A stretch of 51,213 nt of DNA from Chlorobium sp. (lineage in GTDB: Bacteria > Bacteroidota > Chlorobiia > Chlorobiales > Chlorobiaceae). The stretch lies in contig SZXZ01000112.1 of assembly GCA_005843835.1 (NCBI GenBank), positions 1 through 51,213 on the forward strand, given 5' to 3'. The translations under genes were made by a program, and so were the position numbers. Below are positions 2,345 to 9,187 of the stretch, in pieces. Within the stretch, counting starts at the first letter, position 1. Each line of letters begins with the position of its first letter. A model generated the notes under the pieces. The model did no database searches and was not told the DNA's origin. It saw nothing but the letters and a program-made list of their open reading frames with translations.

Positions 2345-3436
2345 CTACATTTTTCTCATTATCAGGGTTAAGGTGTTTTTGTTGTTCACCCGCTTGTAAT
2401 CGATGCTGCCTGTTACACTCCGGATGATTGTCAGTCCTGGGGTTTCGGGTAATAGATTTTTGTCGAGCAGGTTCACTGCTTCTCCTGTACTTTCGAATAC
2501 TACTTCGAGACTGTCATTTTTTTCTGAATAGGCAAAAGCAATTTCAAGCTGCGTTACTGCAAGGAGTGGATTGAAAATCCGAAGCATTTCTTCGATCAGC
2601 AGAGTCAGATTCTGTCGGGTCTTTATTGGCAAAATCTGTTTTTCACAGAACAATTGTATTTCAGCGTTCAAGGCATACAAATCGTAATCAGGTGATGCTA
2701 TATGGTAGCTGAAACTTCTGATTCTGTTTATGAATGTTCTGGTTTTTTCTTTTTGCGGATTATCAAATATCTGTTCCGGTGTTCCCTCTTCATAAATAAT
2801 GCCATCATCCATGTAGAGCACCCTGTTTGAAACGTCTCTGGCAAAGTCCATTTCGTGGGTTACAATTGCCATGGTCATGCCATCCTTGGCAAGTCGGCGA
2901 ATTACTGATAAAACCTCACTGACCATGGTGGGGTCAAGGGCGGAGGTGGGTTCATCGAAGAGTATAATTTTTGGATCCATAGCCATGCATCGGGCTATAG
3001 CGACCCTTTGTTTCTGGCCACCGGAAAGTTCATCGGGATAACTGTCTGCTTTCTCGGCCAGTCCAACAAGTTTGAGAAGATCTCTGGATTTCTGTTCAGC
3101 TTCTTCTTTGGTCTTGCCAAGGAGTTTGATCGGTCCGATGCTGAGGTTATCGAGTACTGAGAGATGAAAAAAAAGATTGAATGATTGAAAGACCATGTTC
3201 ATTTTCTGGCGGATTTTTGGAACATCGGTCTTTGGATCGAGTATATCAACTCCATCAATACGGATTGAACCACCGCTTGGCCGGTCGAGCAGGTTTATAC
3301 AGCGTAAAAAAGTGCTTTTACCAGTGCCGGAAGGACCAATTATTGAGATGACCTCACCTGTCTTGATTTCAACGGAGACATCTTTAAGCACTTCAAGATT
3401 ACCAAAACTCTTTGATAGATGTTCAATCTTAATCAT
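2345..3436 (-). CDS. Polar amino acid ABC transporter ATPase with an extra C-terminal domain
   Basis: This is the nucleotide-binding subunit that powers uptake through the neighbouring permease. Residues 1-240 form a standard GlnQ/HisP-type ATPase: Walker A GPSGTGKS (34-41), signature LSGGQ (137-141), Walker B IILFDE (157-162) and the H-loop His194. The usual family length is about 240-250 residues; this protein has 363. The extra 115 residues resemble a degenerate RsbW/HATPase_c fold: a helix with IEEMLRIF where the N-box E-x-x-x-N would be (Asn replaced), an ESTGE stretch in place of DxGxG, and a [16 protein letters not shown] end typical of anti-sigma kinases. It is probably regulatory and unable to bind ATP there (inference). 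Its start overlaps the permease stop by 4 bases (ATGA), indicating translational coupling. The three-gene operon reads binding protein, permease, ATPase. Confidence 0.92.
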
Positions 3437-4365
3437 GCGCCTGTCAGCTGTTTTCTTTTGAGTTTTGGATTGGCTAATCTTTCTGCGTATTCCATGAACA
3501 GCATCAGCACCCAGGAAATAAGGAAATAGAGGACTGCAACCATTATCAGCGGGAAAAAGGCATCAAACGTACGACTGCGGATAATGTCACTCGCTTTGGT
3601 CAAGTCCTGTACTGCTATATACCCTACGACTGAGGTCATTTTTACCAATGAAATAAATTCGCCTTTATAAACCGGCAAAATTCGCTGGACAGTTTGAGGC
3701 AGCACAATGTAAAGAAAGGTTTTGACCCTGGTAAAGCCCATGGCAATGCCTGCTTCGGACTGACCTTTGTCTATACCTTCTATCCCTGCACGGAAGATTT
3801 CTGATACGTAAGCCGCAAAGTTCATACCGAAAGCAATAACCGAAACAAGAACGGGATCTATGTTTACTGAAGCAAAAACCACATAGAATATCAGCATCAA
3901 AAACACCAGTACCGGTGTTCCCCGTAAAATTGAGATATAGGTTTTAGCAAGCAGGCTGAGGATGACGTTGTTTGACATCCTCATGAAACAGACAAGTGAT
4001 CCCAGAAAGGTGCCGAAAAAAGTTGAAAACACCGAAATGATAACGGTGGTTTTAAGACCTTCCAGAATAAGAAGATAACGGTTTTCCTGGACGATATTGC
4101 TGCGAAAACTGCTGGAAAGCCCTGCTAATAGGGACGAAGAACCTCCCTTTTGCCTCGTGTTCGCTGACTGGTCGTGTTCTGCAAGATTCTCTTTCGATGG
4201 AAGAATAAGGTCTGGTAACGATTTATTCTGCAGGATTGTTGCTTCGTGATAGGTTTTACCAGAAGGGTTCCCGGGTGAAGGAAATGTTTCGGTTACAAAA
4301 CCTGCACAGAGCATACAACCTGCAATAATAAAGAGCAAACTGTATTTATGTCGAAGATTCAACAT
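3433..4365 (-). CDS. Polar amino acid ABC transporter permease
   Basis: A 310-residue inner-membrane permease of the HisM/GlnP type. The core begins near residue 90 ([18 protein letters not shown]) and contains about five membrane helices and the EAA loop ([21 protein letters not shown]), which docks on the ATPase. The N-terminal 90 residues are unusual: a signal-anchor-like helix (residues 9-24) followed by a polar linker. In related Bacteroidota systems the binding protein is fused in front of the permease, so the linker may be what remains of such a fusion (inference from memory of the family). The substrate is likely glutamine, glutamate or another polar amino acid, but cannot be fixed. 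It is translationally coupled to the ATPase gene; a 150-base gap separates it from the binding-protein gene. Confidence 0.9.
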
Positions 4366-4515: not shown

Positions 4516-5304
4516 TTATTCATTGACCACTGCAGCGATACCGCCGATGTAATAGGGTTCGGAAAACAGAACTTTTTTTGCACGCTCATCTGTAATGGTG
4601 ATGCATGCTGCTATCATATCGACTTTACCGGAAATCAGGGCGGGAATCATGGCACCAAACTCCATATTGACTATTTCGAGTTTTTTATCGAGTTTTTTGG
4701 CAATATAAGAGGCAAGTTCTATATCGAAACCTACAATACCGCCGGAACCGTCTACAAAAGAAAATGGCTCTGTTACACTTGATGTACCAAGCCTTAAAAC
4801 ACCATTAGTGCCAGTTGAGGGAATAGCCGGCATGGGGGCAGGGTTTCCTGATTTTGGGAACCAGCGCCGGGTCATGTCAGCGTAACCGCCATTTTTTTTA
4901 AGGTTGCTTACAACGAGATCAATATTTTTTTTCAGATCGTGATTATCAGGCTGAACTGCAAATCCATAATTGTCGGTAGTTATCATCTCGGGGAGAATAA
5001 TAAGCCCACTGTTTTTTGCTGCAATATTTTTTAAAATCGGTTCATCATAAGCGGCAGCATCTGCCTTTCCCGATTTTACTGCCAGGACAGCATCCATGAC
5101 ACTGTTGAAGTACTTGAATTTGGCAGTGGGTAATTTTGAAAGGACGAGCTTGTCTGCGACGGTACCGGTAGGGAGGGCAATTTCTCTGCCTTCAAGTTGT
5201 TGAAGCTTTGTAATTTTCTCTCTTTGTGTGCAACCGGAAAGCATACAGAGTGATGAAAAAACTACAACCAGCATAATGCTGAAAACTTTACCTGTCATAA
5301 TCAT
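4516..5304 (-). CDS. Amino acid ABC transporter binding lipoprotein with permuted lobes
   Basis: A periplasmic substrate-binding protein of the SBP_bac_3 family, probably a lipoprotein: hydrophobic signal, lobebox LSGC, and lipidated Cys25. The domain order is reversed. Residues 32-149 match what is normally the second half (LEGREIALPTGT through the closing RRWF). After a Pro-rich linker (150-167), residues 168-262 match the normal first half (GVLRLGTSSVTEPFSFV, VGFDIELASYIAKKL, ITITDERAKKVLFSEPYY with the ligand-binding Arg241). All parts of one complete domain are present, so this looks like a circular permutation rather than a truncation. The operon with the permease and ATPase supports a transport role. 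The start ATG 5304 has no strong ribosome site; the ATG two codons later is an alternative. Confidence 0.88.
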   Translation of the reverse strand: MIMTGKVFSIMLVVVFSSLCMLSGCTQREKITKLQQLEGREIALPTGTVADKLVLSKLPTAKFKYFNSVMDAVLAVKSGKADAAAYDEPILKNIAAKNSGLIILPEMITTDNYGFAVQPDNHDLKKNIDLVVSNLKKNGGYADMTRRWFPKSGNPAPMPAIPSTGTNGVLRLGTSSVTEPFSFVDGSGGIVGFDIELASYIAKKLDKKLEIVNMEFGAMIPALISGKVDMIAACITITDERAKKVLFSEPYYIGGIAAVVNE

Positions 5305-5533: not shown

Positions 5534-6601
5534 TCAGAACCGGAAGTTGTCAGGTATTGATGGGTAATCGGTATAGCCTTCGGGACCACTGGCAAAGAAT
5601 GTTGCGGGTTGTGGTTCATTGAGCATCGCATTCTGTCGAAAACGTTCAGGCAGATCGGGATTGGCGATGAAGAGAACACCGAAGGCTACTGCATCTGCCT
5701 CGCCGTTTGCAATGACCTCTTCTGCTGTGGTTTTAGTAAAACCTTCATTTGCTATATAAACACCTCCGAAAGCTTTTTTGAGTTGCGGTCCTAAGCGATC
5801 TTCACCGAGATGTTCGCGTGCGAAGATAAAGGCAATGTTGCGCTTTCCGAGCTCGCTGGCCACATAACCAAAGGTTGCGGAGGGGTTGGAGTCGCCCATT
5901 GATTGAGCATCGCCACGGGGGGCCAGATGTACACCAACATGACCGGCTCCCCATACTGATATGACGGCATCGGTTACTTCAAGCATCAACCGTGCGCGGT
6001 TTATGATTGAACCACCATATTCGTCGGTGCGTTTGTTGGTGCTATCCTGTAAAAACTGGTCAAGCAGATACCCGTTGGCTCCATGGACCTCTATTGCATC
6101 GAATCCTGCTTCGAGTGCATTCTGAGCCCCCTTGCGGAAGTCCTCTATAATACCTGGAATCTCTTTGAGCTCAAGTGCCCGAGGAACCGGATAGGACTCT
6201 GACTTATCGAGCAGGCGAACATGACCTTCTGCCGGAACAGCACTGGGAGCCACTGGCTGGAGACCATTTAGAAAGAAGGGATGGGATATGCGTCCTACAT
6301 GCCAGAGCTGCATAAGTATCTGCCCACCTGCTTCGTGGACCGCCTTTGTAATAAGTTTCCAACCTTCGATCTGATCACGGGACCAGATACCGGGAGTATC
6401 GGGATAACCTACGCCCATTGGTGAAACCGATGTTGCTTCTGATAAGATGAGTCCAGCTGAGGCTCTCTGTACATAGTGGTCAGCCATCAGCTTGCTGGGG
6501 ATGCGTCCTCGACCTGCCCGGCAACGTGTAAGCGGTGCCATAATTATACGATTGGGCAAGGTGAGATCACCAACTTTTAATGGATCGAAAAGACAAGACA
6601 T
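5534..6601 (-). CDS. Old Yellow Enzyme family NADH:flavin oxidoreductase (ene-reductase)
   Basis: A 355-residue FMN-dependent TIM-barrel enzyme that reduces activated C=C bonds, close to NemA/PETN reductase by eye. Visible features are LFDPLKVGDLTLPNRIIMAPLTR at the N terminus, QLWHVGRISH, the substrate-anion pair in HGANGYLLDQF (His/Asn as in yeast OYE), DEYGGSIINRARL, and the C-terminal ANPDLPERF and EGYTDYP. The start ATG 6601 is chosen because GAAGGA lies 9 bases upstream; a longer frame to 6676 lacks family similarity. One oddity: the segment normally reading FGRxFIANPDL reads FGVLFIANPDL, so the Arg that usually contacts the FMN phosphate is missing. The physiological substrate is unknown. 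It seems to be a single gene between the ABC operon and the histidine kinase. Confidence 0.9.
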   Translation of the reverse strand: MSCLFDPLKVGDLTLPNRIIMAPLTRCRAGRGRIPSKLMADHYVQRASAGLILSEATSVSPMGVGYPDTPGIWSRDQIEGWKLITKAVHEAGGQILMQLWHVGRISHPFFLNGLQPVAPSAVPAEGHVRLLDKSESYPVPRALELKEIPGIIEDFRKGAQNALEAGFDAIEVHGANGYLLDQFLQDSTNKRTDEYGGSIINRARLMLEVTDAVISVWGAGHVGVHLAPRGDAQSMGDSNPSATFGYVASELGKRNIAFIFAREHLGEDRLGPQLKKAFGGVYIANEGFTKTTAEEVIANGEADAVAFGVLFIANPDLPERFRQNAMLNEPQPATFFASGPEGYTDYPSIPDNFRF

Positions 6602-6718
6602 GATTATTATTCCTTCGTTGATAGCATGTATGCATTGATTATAAAATGTTCCAGTGCCTGTATGATATTTGTCCAATCAGGGGCACGGGAACACAGGGGG
6701 GAAGATGTGGGTCAGGAG

Positions 6719-9187
6719 TCATACATCGTCCTTATTAAGGATGTTATGGACTGTCCTGAGTAGCGATTTGAATGAGAATGGCTTCTGAATAAAATTGATT
6801 CTTTCGTAGAGCTCGCTATAGGGTAAAAAAACATCGGTCGTGTATCCTGACATGAATATTGTTTTCAGGTGAGGAATGGTTGCCTGAAGAGTATTGGATA
6901 GTTCTGATCCGTTCATTTCAGGCATAACTACATCAGTCAATAGCAGGTCAATGCCACCATCGTGTTTATCGGCAAGCCGAATAGCTTCGCGTGGACTTGT
7001 CGTAGAAAGAACCATATATCCCTTTTCTTCGAGCATGCGCTGGCTGAGGTGAAGGATATCAGGTTCATCCTCAACAAGGAGAATTGTTTCTTTGCCGTAA
7101 GGTATTGACGGGTCATCCTGATCACTGTCATCGTTATCGGTATAACCCCTGTGACGCGGGAGATAAATTGTGAAGGTGGTCCCGATGTTCGGTTCACTCT
7201 TAAAGTCGATATAACCGTTGTTCTGTTTGACAAGACCGTACACTGTCGATAACCCTAAACCTGTACCATTTCCCTCTGTTTTAGTGGTATAAAAAGGTTC
7301 AAATATATGGAGCAGATGCTCTTTTTCTATACCGCATCCATTATCGGCAACAGAAAGCGTGACATACTCTCCGGGAACCTTGCAGGGAGAGAGGGTAGAA
7401 CATTCCACTTTGTCGACACTGATAATTGCTGTCTTGATGGTAATTTCACCATTACCGGCAATCGCGTCACGAGAATTAATGCAAAGGTTCACGAGAATCT
7501 GGTCGACCTGCGATGGATCAACTTTGATCATGGTATTGTGACTGTCGGGCAGCCATATCATGGAAATATTTTCGCCAATCAGCACTCTCAGCATTGTAAG
7601 CATTCTTTCAATCATGGTATTCAGATTGAGCACAATAGGCATGAGAGGCTGTTTACGGGCAAAGGCCAGCAGTTGTCGGGTTAAATCTGCGGATCGCTCG
7701 GTGGCTTTGAGAATGTTCTTGAAGTTTTGAATCAGTGGTTCATGTATGGCTTGTCCTTCCATTGCCATTTCAACATTGCCGATAATTACCCCGAGCATAT
7801 TGTTGAAATCATGGGCTATACCTCCCGCAAGCTGACCGATCAGTTCCATTTTCTGGGACTGTATCAATGCTTCGCGTGTATTCTGTTCTGTAAGTTCAGA
7901 GCGTTTGCGAGCTACGATGTCCCAAGCGATATCAACAAGGGATTCAACTATTTTGATATCGTCCTGATCATAGTTTCCAGCCTTGTTTCCGACTCCGATA
8001 ACTGCAAGGACCCTGTTTCTCCGTATTACAGGTACAATAAGGGCTTGCGTGATTTTGGTATCGGTCGGCTGAGTCACTCCCTTGCATATGAATTCACCGC
8101 CATCATGATATATTATTGCCCTCTGATCCCTTAGAGATTCAGTCCAGATTTCTTTTTCTTTCGGCTGAAAGCGGGCTCCCCTTCTGGTCGTTTTGTGAAT
8201 TGCGGTTATGGGACCAGTTGACCATGTTTGCATTGAAATTGTATTCTGGTCCTCATCAACAAGATGGAAAAAGCCTATAGAGCTATCTGTCATTCGCTCA
8301 ACCTCTTCAATGGTGAGTTTCAGCAATTGTTTCACTGAGTTTGTCTCAGCAAGTTCTAATAACCGGATACGGAATGTGATGAAGGATTCGTAGCGCTTGC
8401 GTTCGGTGATATCGTGAATAATCGCGTAGAGGATCTCTTTACCTTCTACATCAATTTTGTTGCTGAAAACCTCAACGTCGCGGACAGAACCGTCGGACCG
8501 GTGATGAGAAAATATAAATCGGTTCTGTCTGGTGGATCTTATTTTTTCAAAATTGTTTGAGATTATTTCGGATGGTATAATATTGATCTGCTGAATGTTC
8601 ATCCGTTTGAGCTCTTCGATTGACCATCCATAAAAGTCTGCTGCGGAATGATTGGCATCAATAATATTGCCTGTTTCCGGGTCAATGAGAACCTTGATTG
8701 CGGCGTGATGTTCAAACAGTTTTTTGAATCTGTCCTCACTTCGGCTCAATGCCTGCTCAGCTTTCTTTCGCTGGGAAATATCCATCCCCAATCCAATAAC
8801 AAAAGGGACTCCCTGGATGGTTATTCTTCGTCCAGTGATTAGCCGCCAGCAGACTTCAGGTCCACCATGTATAAGTGCCCTGACCTCTACATGCTCTTCT
8901 GAACCCTGGGTCAGTATCTTTTTTATTTTTTCGGTGATGAGCAGTCGATCATCCGGATGAAAAAAATCAAGCACATTAGTACCTGCCATCTGTTGTTCGG
9001 GCTTGCCGGATATTTCGTCGCGCAAAAATGCGTTCCACCTCACAAGCTTCCCATCGGCATCAAGCATATAAAATGAACCGTGTATAGAATCTATAACTGT
9101 CTGGCTGAAAAAATACTCCTGCTCTGCGGTCAAATGCAGATTGCTGAGTTCCTGCCAATCTCTTTTTTTCATCGGGCTGTTCGTCAT
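6719..9187 (-). CDS. Hybrid sensor histidine kinase (PAS-PAS-GAF-HisKA-HATPase-REC)
   Basis: An 822-residue cytoplasmic signalling protein with no membrane helices. Domains in order: PAS (about 25-140), a second PAS (150-265, ending DITERK), GAF (about 275-425), the dimerisation/phosphoacceptor helix with His459 in GGIAHDFNNMLG, an HATPase domain with the N-box NLCINSRDAI near 567-576, G1 DNGCGI and G2 GNGTGLGLS, and a receiver domain (700-822) with phosphoacceptor Asp752 (LLTDVVMPEMNG) and Lys802. The HDFNN phosphoacceptor box is that of the NtrB-like/hybrid class. The signal is probably a small molecule, oxygen or redox sensed by PAS/GAF, which is not deducible here. No separate response-regulator gene is next to it, so the output must go elsewhere. 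Confidence 0.92.
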   Translation of the reverse strand: MTNSPMKKRDWQELSNLHLTAEQEYFFSQTVIDSIHGSFYMLDADGKLVRWNAFLRDEISGKPEQQMAGTNVLDFFHPDDRLLITEKIKKILTQGSEEHVEVRALIHGGPEVCWRLITGRRITIQGVPFVIGLGMDISQRKKAEQALSRSEDRFKKLFEHHAAIKVLIDPETGNIIDANHSAADFYGWSIEELKRMNIQQINIIPSEIISNNFEKIRSTRQNRFIFSHHRSDGSVRDVEVFSNKIDVEGKEILYAIIHDITERKRYESFITFRIRLLELAETNSVKQLLKLTIEEVERMTDSSIGFFHLVDEDQNTISMQTWSTGPITAIHKTTRRGARFQPKEKEIWTESLRDQRAIIYHDGGEFICKGVTQPTDTKITQALIVPVIRRNRVLAVIGVGNKAGNYDQDDIKIVESLVDIAWDIVARKRSELTEQNTREALIQSQKMELIGQLAGGIAHDFNNMLGVIIGNVEMAMEGQAIHEPLIQNFKNILKATERSADLTRQLLAFARKQPLMPIVLNLNTMIERMLTMLRVLIGENISMIWLPDSHNTMIKVDPSQVDQILVNLCINSRDAIAGNGEITIKTAIISVDKVECSTLSPCKVPGEYVTLSVADNGCGIEKEHLLHIFEPFYTTKTEGNGTGLGLSTVYGLVKQNNGYIDFKSEPNIGTTFTIYLPRHRGYTDNDDSDQDDPSIPYGKETILLVEDEPDILHLSQRMLEEKGYMVLSTTSPREAIRLADKHDGGIDLLLTDVVMPEMNGSELSNTLQATIPHLKTIFMSGYTTDVFLPYSELYERINFIQKPFSFKSLLRTVHNILNKDDV

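Follow-up and report, generated by a model that had tools for sequence, protein, structure and literature searches.

A predicted natural circular permutant of the SBP_bac_3 binding-protein domain beside an amino-acid-type ABC importer of Chlorobium

The window analysed here, a stretch of 51,213 nucleotides of Chlorobium sp. DNA, encodes a predicted lipoprotein in which the two halves of an SBP_bac_3 substrate-binding domain stand in reversed order, and this raises the question of whether such a chain folds by itself as a natural circular permutant, is completed by a second chain or is what is left of a longer gene. A preliminary description had placed the gene at positions 4516–5304 and read it as one complete domain, either a natural circular permutation or the middle of an ancestral tandem pair. 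The coordinates are right and the strand is the minus strand, on which the open reading frame runs from 5304 down to 4516 and encodes 262 amino acids plus a stop codon. Its parts, with the evidence for each, are:

4516–5304 (including the stop codon), minus strand: SBP_bac_3 lipoprotein, very probably circularly permuted, C half then N half, 262 amino acids (Pfam, phmmer, half profiles, AlphaFold2)
5230–5304, minus strand: signal peptide and lipobox LSGC, predicted lipid-modified Cys25 (sequence; C25 in 11 of 11 alignment rows; lipobox pattern in relatives)
4849–5208, minus strand: C-terminal half, about residues 33–152, comprising lobe 2 plus the part that closes lobe 1, with D87 (phmmer, half profiles)
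4810–4848, minus strand: Pro-rich C-to-N linker, about residues 153–165, with high pLDDT (alignment, junction lengths, model)
4519–4812, minus strand: N-terminal half, about residues 165–262, most of lobe 1, with R241 (Pfam, phmmer, half profiles)

Pfam matches the protein to SBP_bac_3 (PF00497) with 114.3 bits (E 4.4e-33, cut-off 26.4) in two stretches, the better of which aligns residues 170–261 with profile positions 1–91, and phmmer aligns it with PDB chain 6svf in two pieces whose order is reversed, the N half (residues 161–260 with chain positions 3–102, 81 bits) and the C half (residues 35–150 with chain positions 114–228, 56 bits). These matches bear out the earlier statement that the C-terminal half comes first: the order is C-N and not the collinear N-C order of the profile, and by its sequence the protein is a permuted derivative of SBP_bac_3 rather than an ordinary member. 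The linker between the halves, PKSGNPAPMPAIPSTGTNG, is rich in proline, as had been noted. The phrase "two lobes swapped" needs amendment; the halves are indeed reversed, but they are not exactly the two lobes, the C half presumably also holding the return strand and last helices of lobe 1, as in the GlnBP topology.

Sixty-one genomes (the window's own and 60 relatives) were compared, and 31 of the 61 have a match at E ≤ 0.001, with closest full-length matches of 54–87% identity; an alignment of 11 proteins (A1) served as query for the scan of named genomes. A total of 113 stretches encoding a relative were found, the best 80 of which were taken and gave 79 loci (58–88% identity), and the order of units in these was read with profiles of each half built for this analysis, on which Klebsiella GlnH scores 95.6 and 102.3 bits. 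A solitary C-N reading frame is present in all 79 loci (the best of the 113 stretches), an agreement that is partly by construction since a C-N protein was the query by which the loci were collected, ranked and capped; the number of loci, and the lipoprotein signal just ahead of the C half and stop codon just past the N half in most of them, are not by construction. One of the 79 loci also has a canonical N-C frame. C-N arrays fused to a permease occur in 31 loci and a separate permease in 28 (one locus has both), while in 21 loci, some of which end at contig ends, no permease was found. The permease fusions carry one C-N unit in 18 cases, two in eight and three in seven; one further fusion is a C-N-C′ relic and another is cut by the end of its stretch.

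By record name, and draft bins may be misnamed, the loci come from green sulfur bacteria of the Chlorobiaceae and from Geobacter, Trichlorobacter, Pelotomaculum, Azonexus, Methylophilales, Ignavibacteria, Gemmatimonadota, Acidobacteriaceae, KSB1, Lentisphaerae and Verrucomicrobia. Of 296 genomes sampled from the window's phylum, 31 match at E ≤ 1e-45, 28 of these within the window's own family, and at least 20 genomes of the window's own genus in that sample have no match; the samples of two other phyla gave 1 of 198 and 1 of 200 genomes, each being the genome used as centre. The C-N family turns up often in green sulfur bacteria and sporadically in other groups, a distribution that suggests transfer between phyla. 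A gene for an NMT1/THI5-like binding protein lies near the permuted system in one locus (L070, positions 5915–6991), and similar frames are found in 6 of the 79 loci.

AlphaFold2, given an alignment with 124 relatives, predicts the mature window protein as a single confident domain, linker included (pLDDT 94.4, pTM 0.87), with 221 of 238 residues at pLDDT 90 or more, which agrees with the preliminary reading of one complete domain; as far as a predicted model can tell, residues 32–149 fold as that reading supposed. A C-N-C-N stretch of another locus (L104) was modelled in tandem from 22 rows (pLDDT 88.6, pTM 0.50), and the inner dip of pLDDT below 50 falls on its N-to-C linker, residues 246–254. 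This one model of one array puts each C half with its own N half, though both pairings were open. At full length, both models find their best structural match in OpuAC, the glycine betaine binding protein of Bacillus subtilis (2b4l/2b4m), at Z 12.0 and 3.9 Å over 199 of 238 residues for the solitary model and Z 13.4 and 4.1 Å over 212 residues for C2-N2 of the tandem model; the next full-length matches of other proteins have Z 10.3 and 11.6, respectively, which is 1.7–1.8 lower, and canonical binding proteins also align with the models over 160–180 residues.

The relatives allow the folding unit to be approached without a model. The C-to-N linker is 9–12 residues long in 159 of 159 junctions, and pairwise distances of the C and N halves within a unit are correlated at 0.954 over 159 units (related sequences were given full weight in these co-variation statistics). 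In the 26 usable array junctions the correlation between a C half and its own N half is 0.930, and 0.927 in the following unit. When the halves are sorted into types, agreement within units is 0.69–1.0 versus 0.07–0.43 across units for 3, 4, 5, 6 and 8 clusters (1.0 versus 0.313 with five clusters), and the same unit types recur alone, first in an array, second, or directly ahead of the permease, which suggests that C-N units are shuffled as wholes. The near-fixed linker, the co-variation, the AlphaFold2 model and the tandem model support C-N as the predicted folding unit, and the same four lines back the preliminary description's reading of a natural circular permutation.

Could the C-N chain nevertheless be the middle of a tandem, completed by a swapped dimer or by a neighbouring array? 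The same sequence signals would be expected from a dimer in which domains are swapped head to tail, and the model used here is a monomer; loose domain swapping is on record for the dimer of Thermotoga maritima ArgBP, a close PDB relative. The best phmmer stretch to the tandem binding domains SBD1-SBD2 of GlnPQ (6h30) aligns residues 25–257 of the window protein with chain positions 96–325, that is, straight through the junction of the C half of SBD1 and the N half of SBD2, and 6h30 is also the top Foldseek match of the solitary model. That match, however, has an rmsd of 18.7 Å and a TM score of 0.41, so that the two halves lie otherwise in the model, and the 50 matches listed by Foldseek are half matches and look-alikes (TM 0.35–0.52, query-normalised) that do not decide family membership. 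The short near-fixed linker and the co-variation within units also speak against completion by another chain, and SBP_bac_3 occurs at a single place, the C-N one, in the window's own draft genome (88.7% complete) and in nine other relatives, so that no array is at hand there. We consider completion by a second chain improbable.

The opposite pairing within arrays, in which each N half folds with the C half that follows and an orphan half is left at both ends, is considerably less probable still. Pfam does read N1-C2 of one array (G030) as an uninterrupted domain (139.1 bits, profile positions 1–131); to it array middles look like an ordinary domain with broken ends, and in this way annotation hides the permutation. 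But the N-to-C spacers within arrays are 6–26 mostly low-complexity residues (27 junctions), against 1–3 residues between the N and C halves in 15 of 16 canonical non-channel proteins and 14 in the remaining one; the correlation of an N half with the next C half is 0.245 in the 26 array junctions, which is weak but above zero (permutation p 0.012); N1-C2 of the L104 model superposes on canonical binding proteins at 15–17 Å only; and the solitary C-N proteins have no partner for such pairing. Five channel-bearing receptors, with an N-to-C spacing of 113–114, were left out of the canonical count. TVGYGD is the potassium-channel signature, and it is present in the inserts of L056, L057 and L059, which are read as GluR0-like receptor channels of canonical order; relatives of 371–404 amino acids with about 114 residues between N and C had been considered as permutation intermediates and were rejected on this ground. 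Canonical N and C halves about 114 residues apart are seen in L056, L057, L058, L059 and L060.

The source of the window is a draft assembly of 140 contigs, and a first half might have been lost upstream. No N half was seen upstream of the permuted gene, the next large frame on the same strand (5534–6676) encoding a putative Old-Yellow-Enzyme-type protein, and the C-N order recurs in other genomes. Rough dN/dS values for the window gene against relatives are 0.04–0.09 in 8 of 8 comparisons, with dS about 1 or more. That the frame is a remnant left by assembly error or gene decay is scarcely credible, despite the fragmented and 88.7% complete draft, given these low dN/dS values, the C-N order shared by all 79 loci (the best of 113 stretches), two of them from isolates or strains by title (Trichlorobacter thiogenes ATCC BAA-34 and Azonexus hydrophilus), and C-N matches in solitary-length and array-length frames of the single-contig genome G116; the 79 loci and G116 rule out a frameshift or lost upstream half. 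To judge from these comparisons the C-N proteins are a conserved family and not an assembly error.

Two further genes follow the binding-protein gene on the same strand:

3433–4365, minus strand: HisM/GlnP-type permease, 310 amino acids, its N terminus unusually extended by about 95 residues (TIGR01726, PF00528)
2345–3436, minus strand: GlnQ-like ABC ATPase, 363 amino acids (PF00005, GlnQ model)

The permease scores 73.4 bits on TIGR01726 (cut-off 42.2) and 71.9 bits on PF00528, and adjoins the binding-protein gene as expected of a polar-amino-acid importer. The ATPase scores 123.7 bits on ABC_tran (PF00005, cut-off 25) and 306.1 bits on the GlnQ equivalog, below its cut-off of 379. As the binding-protein gene stands upstream of a permease and an ATPase on one strand, import is the natural reading. 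A gene for a hybrid sensor histidine kinase (PAS, GAF, HisKA, HATPase_c and receiver domains) lies upstream of the transporter genes at 6719–9187, also on the minus strand.

Arg 75 of GlnH binds the α-carboxylate of the ligand and Asp 157 its α-ammonium group. The residue that corresponds to R75, R241, is kept in 125 of 125 units, and D87, which corresponds to D157, is kept in 63 of 64 rows of a first group (the window protein, 62 solitary proteins of its type and one of another type) and in 18 of 61 rows of a second (56 rows from longer frames, including one of the window's type, plus five solitary units, all of other types). GlnH D10, K115 and H156 are changed in the window protein, to S175, P45 and Y86. 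The solitary protein probably binds an α-amino acid or a derivative; the array units, judged by these columns, have diverged, and since only 18 of 61 keep the aspartate their ligands may differ and "amino acid" is to be read as a prediction.

Taken together, the sequence and model evidence makes it very probable that the window protein serves a polar-amino-acid-type ABC importer as its membrane-anchored binding protein, and that it has an SBP_bac_3 domain which is truly a natural circular permutant. From a start inside lobe 2 the chain would complete the usual C-terminal half, reach the usual N-terminal half over a short ordered linker and return to lobe 2 at its end; the domain would close like a Venus flytrap on an α-amino acid or derivative, which would then be handed to the permease encoded alongside. 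A simple lipobox pattern is present in 77 of the 90 solitary and 26 of the 42 longer proteins, and in those 77 solitary proteins the lipid-bearing cysteine stands 4 residues (in 64), 5 (in 7) or 6 (in 6) ahead of the point where the modelled C half begins; the lipid-anchored end thus leads into the other half, as had been proposed. In the fused relatives the permease comes after the N half. The cut site presumably falls in lobe 2, as judged by the GlnH topology, and with a cut there the lipid anchor and the permease would, on geometric grounds, both hold lobe 2. The permutation would shift the attachment point from lobe 1 to lobe 2, and the domain would work with lobe 2 held near the membrane.

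The permease extension holds a trace of how the locus may have arisen:

4192–4257, minus strand: probable remnant of a lost C half within the extension, permease residues 37–58 (identities to intact C halves)

This relic shares 13 of 22 and 13 of 24 residues with two intact C halves, and the half profile alone gives it 0.5 bits. It aligns with the shorter C-half piece (18 bits) retained in L064 at a score of 48 against a shuffle maximum of 45, and with the fragment in L070 at 67 against 45, an alignment that spans adjoining permease sequence too; 0 of 2000 shuffles reach the score in either case. In L034/L070, one contig reached by two routes, the fused protein is C-N-C′-permease, C′ being a 46-residue remnant. 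A relic of a C half in a separate permease suggests descent of the window's genes from a (C-N)n-permease fusion, and the split arrangement is probably secondary, the permease having lost its fused units and kept a relic of one. As for the permutation itself, the ancestral tandem pair of the preliminary description fits as a route to it, but the canonical N-C-N-C ancestor was not found: 21 of 21 canonical binding proteins collected are single N-C proteins, and these are proteins that passed a simple order filter, several of them from short stretches that could hide a tandem. In FastTree trees of 31 C-N and 17 canonical proteins, the C-N proteins fall together in the joined tree (support 0.40) and the C-only tree (0.74), and in the N-only tree one canonical protein falls among them.

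Few natural circular permutants of binding proteins are found in the literature searched, and no permuted SBP_bac_3 protein was found among the open-licence PMC papers listed. OpuAC, the structural match above, differs from both models in sequence (10–17% identity) and binds quaternary ammonium compounds, and its family, PF04069, is not among the four families matched by the window protein to E 10 in a search whose filters drop most matches above 0.1. Circular-permutation relationships have been reported within a set of glycine-betaine-binding structures that includes 2b4l, 1r9l and 1sw1 (PMC2395249), and in OpuA of Lactococcus lactis the binding domain forms part of the transporter (PMC2861598). 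Tp0684 (MglB-2) of Treponema pallidum is described as a natural circularly permuted, lipid-anchored binding protein ("Type Ic / Cluster Bc"), and its authors raise a link between permutation and membrane anchoring (PMC4990184). Unlike the window protein it belongs to Type I/Cluster B and binds glucose, its permutation lies at another site, and its lobes are joined by a fourth crossing (PMC4990184). With natural permutants already on record in the glycine-betaine group and in Tp0684, the C-N proteins are a new permuted family and not a new kind of protein.

The enterobacterial GlnH/GlnPQ importer resembles the window system in the positions of R75 and D157, whereas the window system has the permuted order, changes at D10, K115 and H156, and an ATPase with an extra domain. 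GlnPQ-type binding domains are fused ahead of the same kind of permease. The lactococcal GlnPQ SBD1-SBD2 (6h30) shares homologous halves and binding domains in tandem, but its order is canonical N-C and it joins the permease through the C-terminal half, whereas the permuted family does so through the N-terminal half.

The extra domain of the ATPase is a separate matter:

2348–2701, minus strand: C-terminal extension of the ATPase, a degenerate RsbW/HATPase_c_2-like domain (hhalign, PF13581)

Such an extension is present on all 53 of the ATPases in the 79 loci that score above 290 bits. It matches the stand-alone HATPase_c_2 neighbours found near relatives (hhalign, 98.0%, E 2.7e-13), and 15 of 22 extensions match PF13581 at E ≤ 0.1; the window's own scores 13.7 bits on HATPase_c_2, under the cut-off of 27.4. 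The asparagine and glycines that do not vary among 11 stand-alone kinases lie outside the invariant columns of the 22 extensions. STAS homologues occur in 15 of the 79 stretches, stand-alone HATPase_c_2 proteins in 12 and SpoIIE-type phosphatases in 10, counted anywhere in the stretch and so not always adjoining the operon or on its strand, with Pfam identities taken from one of each. Genes for STAS, stand-alone HATPase_c_2 and dCache-HAMP-SpoIIE proteins are seen at L070, L071, L085, L086, L087, L100, L105 and others, and it is possible that these neighbours form a partner-switching module; among the window frames adjoining the operon no STAS, stand-alone kinase or SpoIIE gene was noticed. 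Such control has a precedent in the STAS protein MlaB, which forms a complex with the ATPase MlaF (PMC7367683). We offer only as a tentative and rather doubtful proposal that these systems are a class of regulated ABC importer, in which lobe 2 would be fixed at the membrane, permuted domains of different specificity would compete in series on one permease, and transport would be gated by partner switching, the RsbW-like domain of the ATPase binding a STAS protein that is itself set by an RsbW-type kinase and a dCache-HAMP-SpoIIE phosphatase. Whatever the fate of that proposal, the RsbW-like tail gives a testable lead of its own on how an importer might be controlled post-translationally.

What the locus offers is a whole permuted family, conserved across several phyla, in which permuted units stand alone, in twos or in threes on one permease and relics suggest which way the change went. 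With it one could ask, in natural proteins, whether tying one lobe of a Venus flytrap or the other to the membrane or the permease makes a difference, and the permuted scaffolds may be usable in sensor design.
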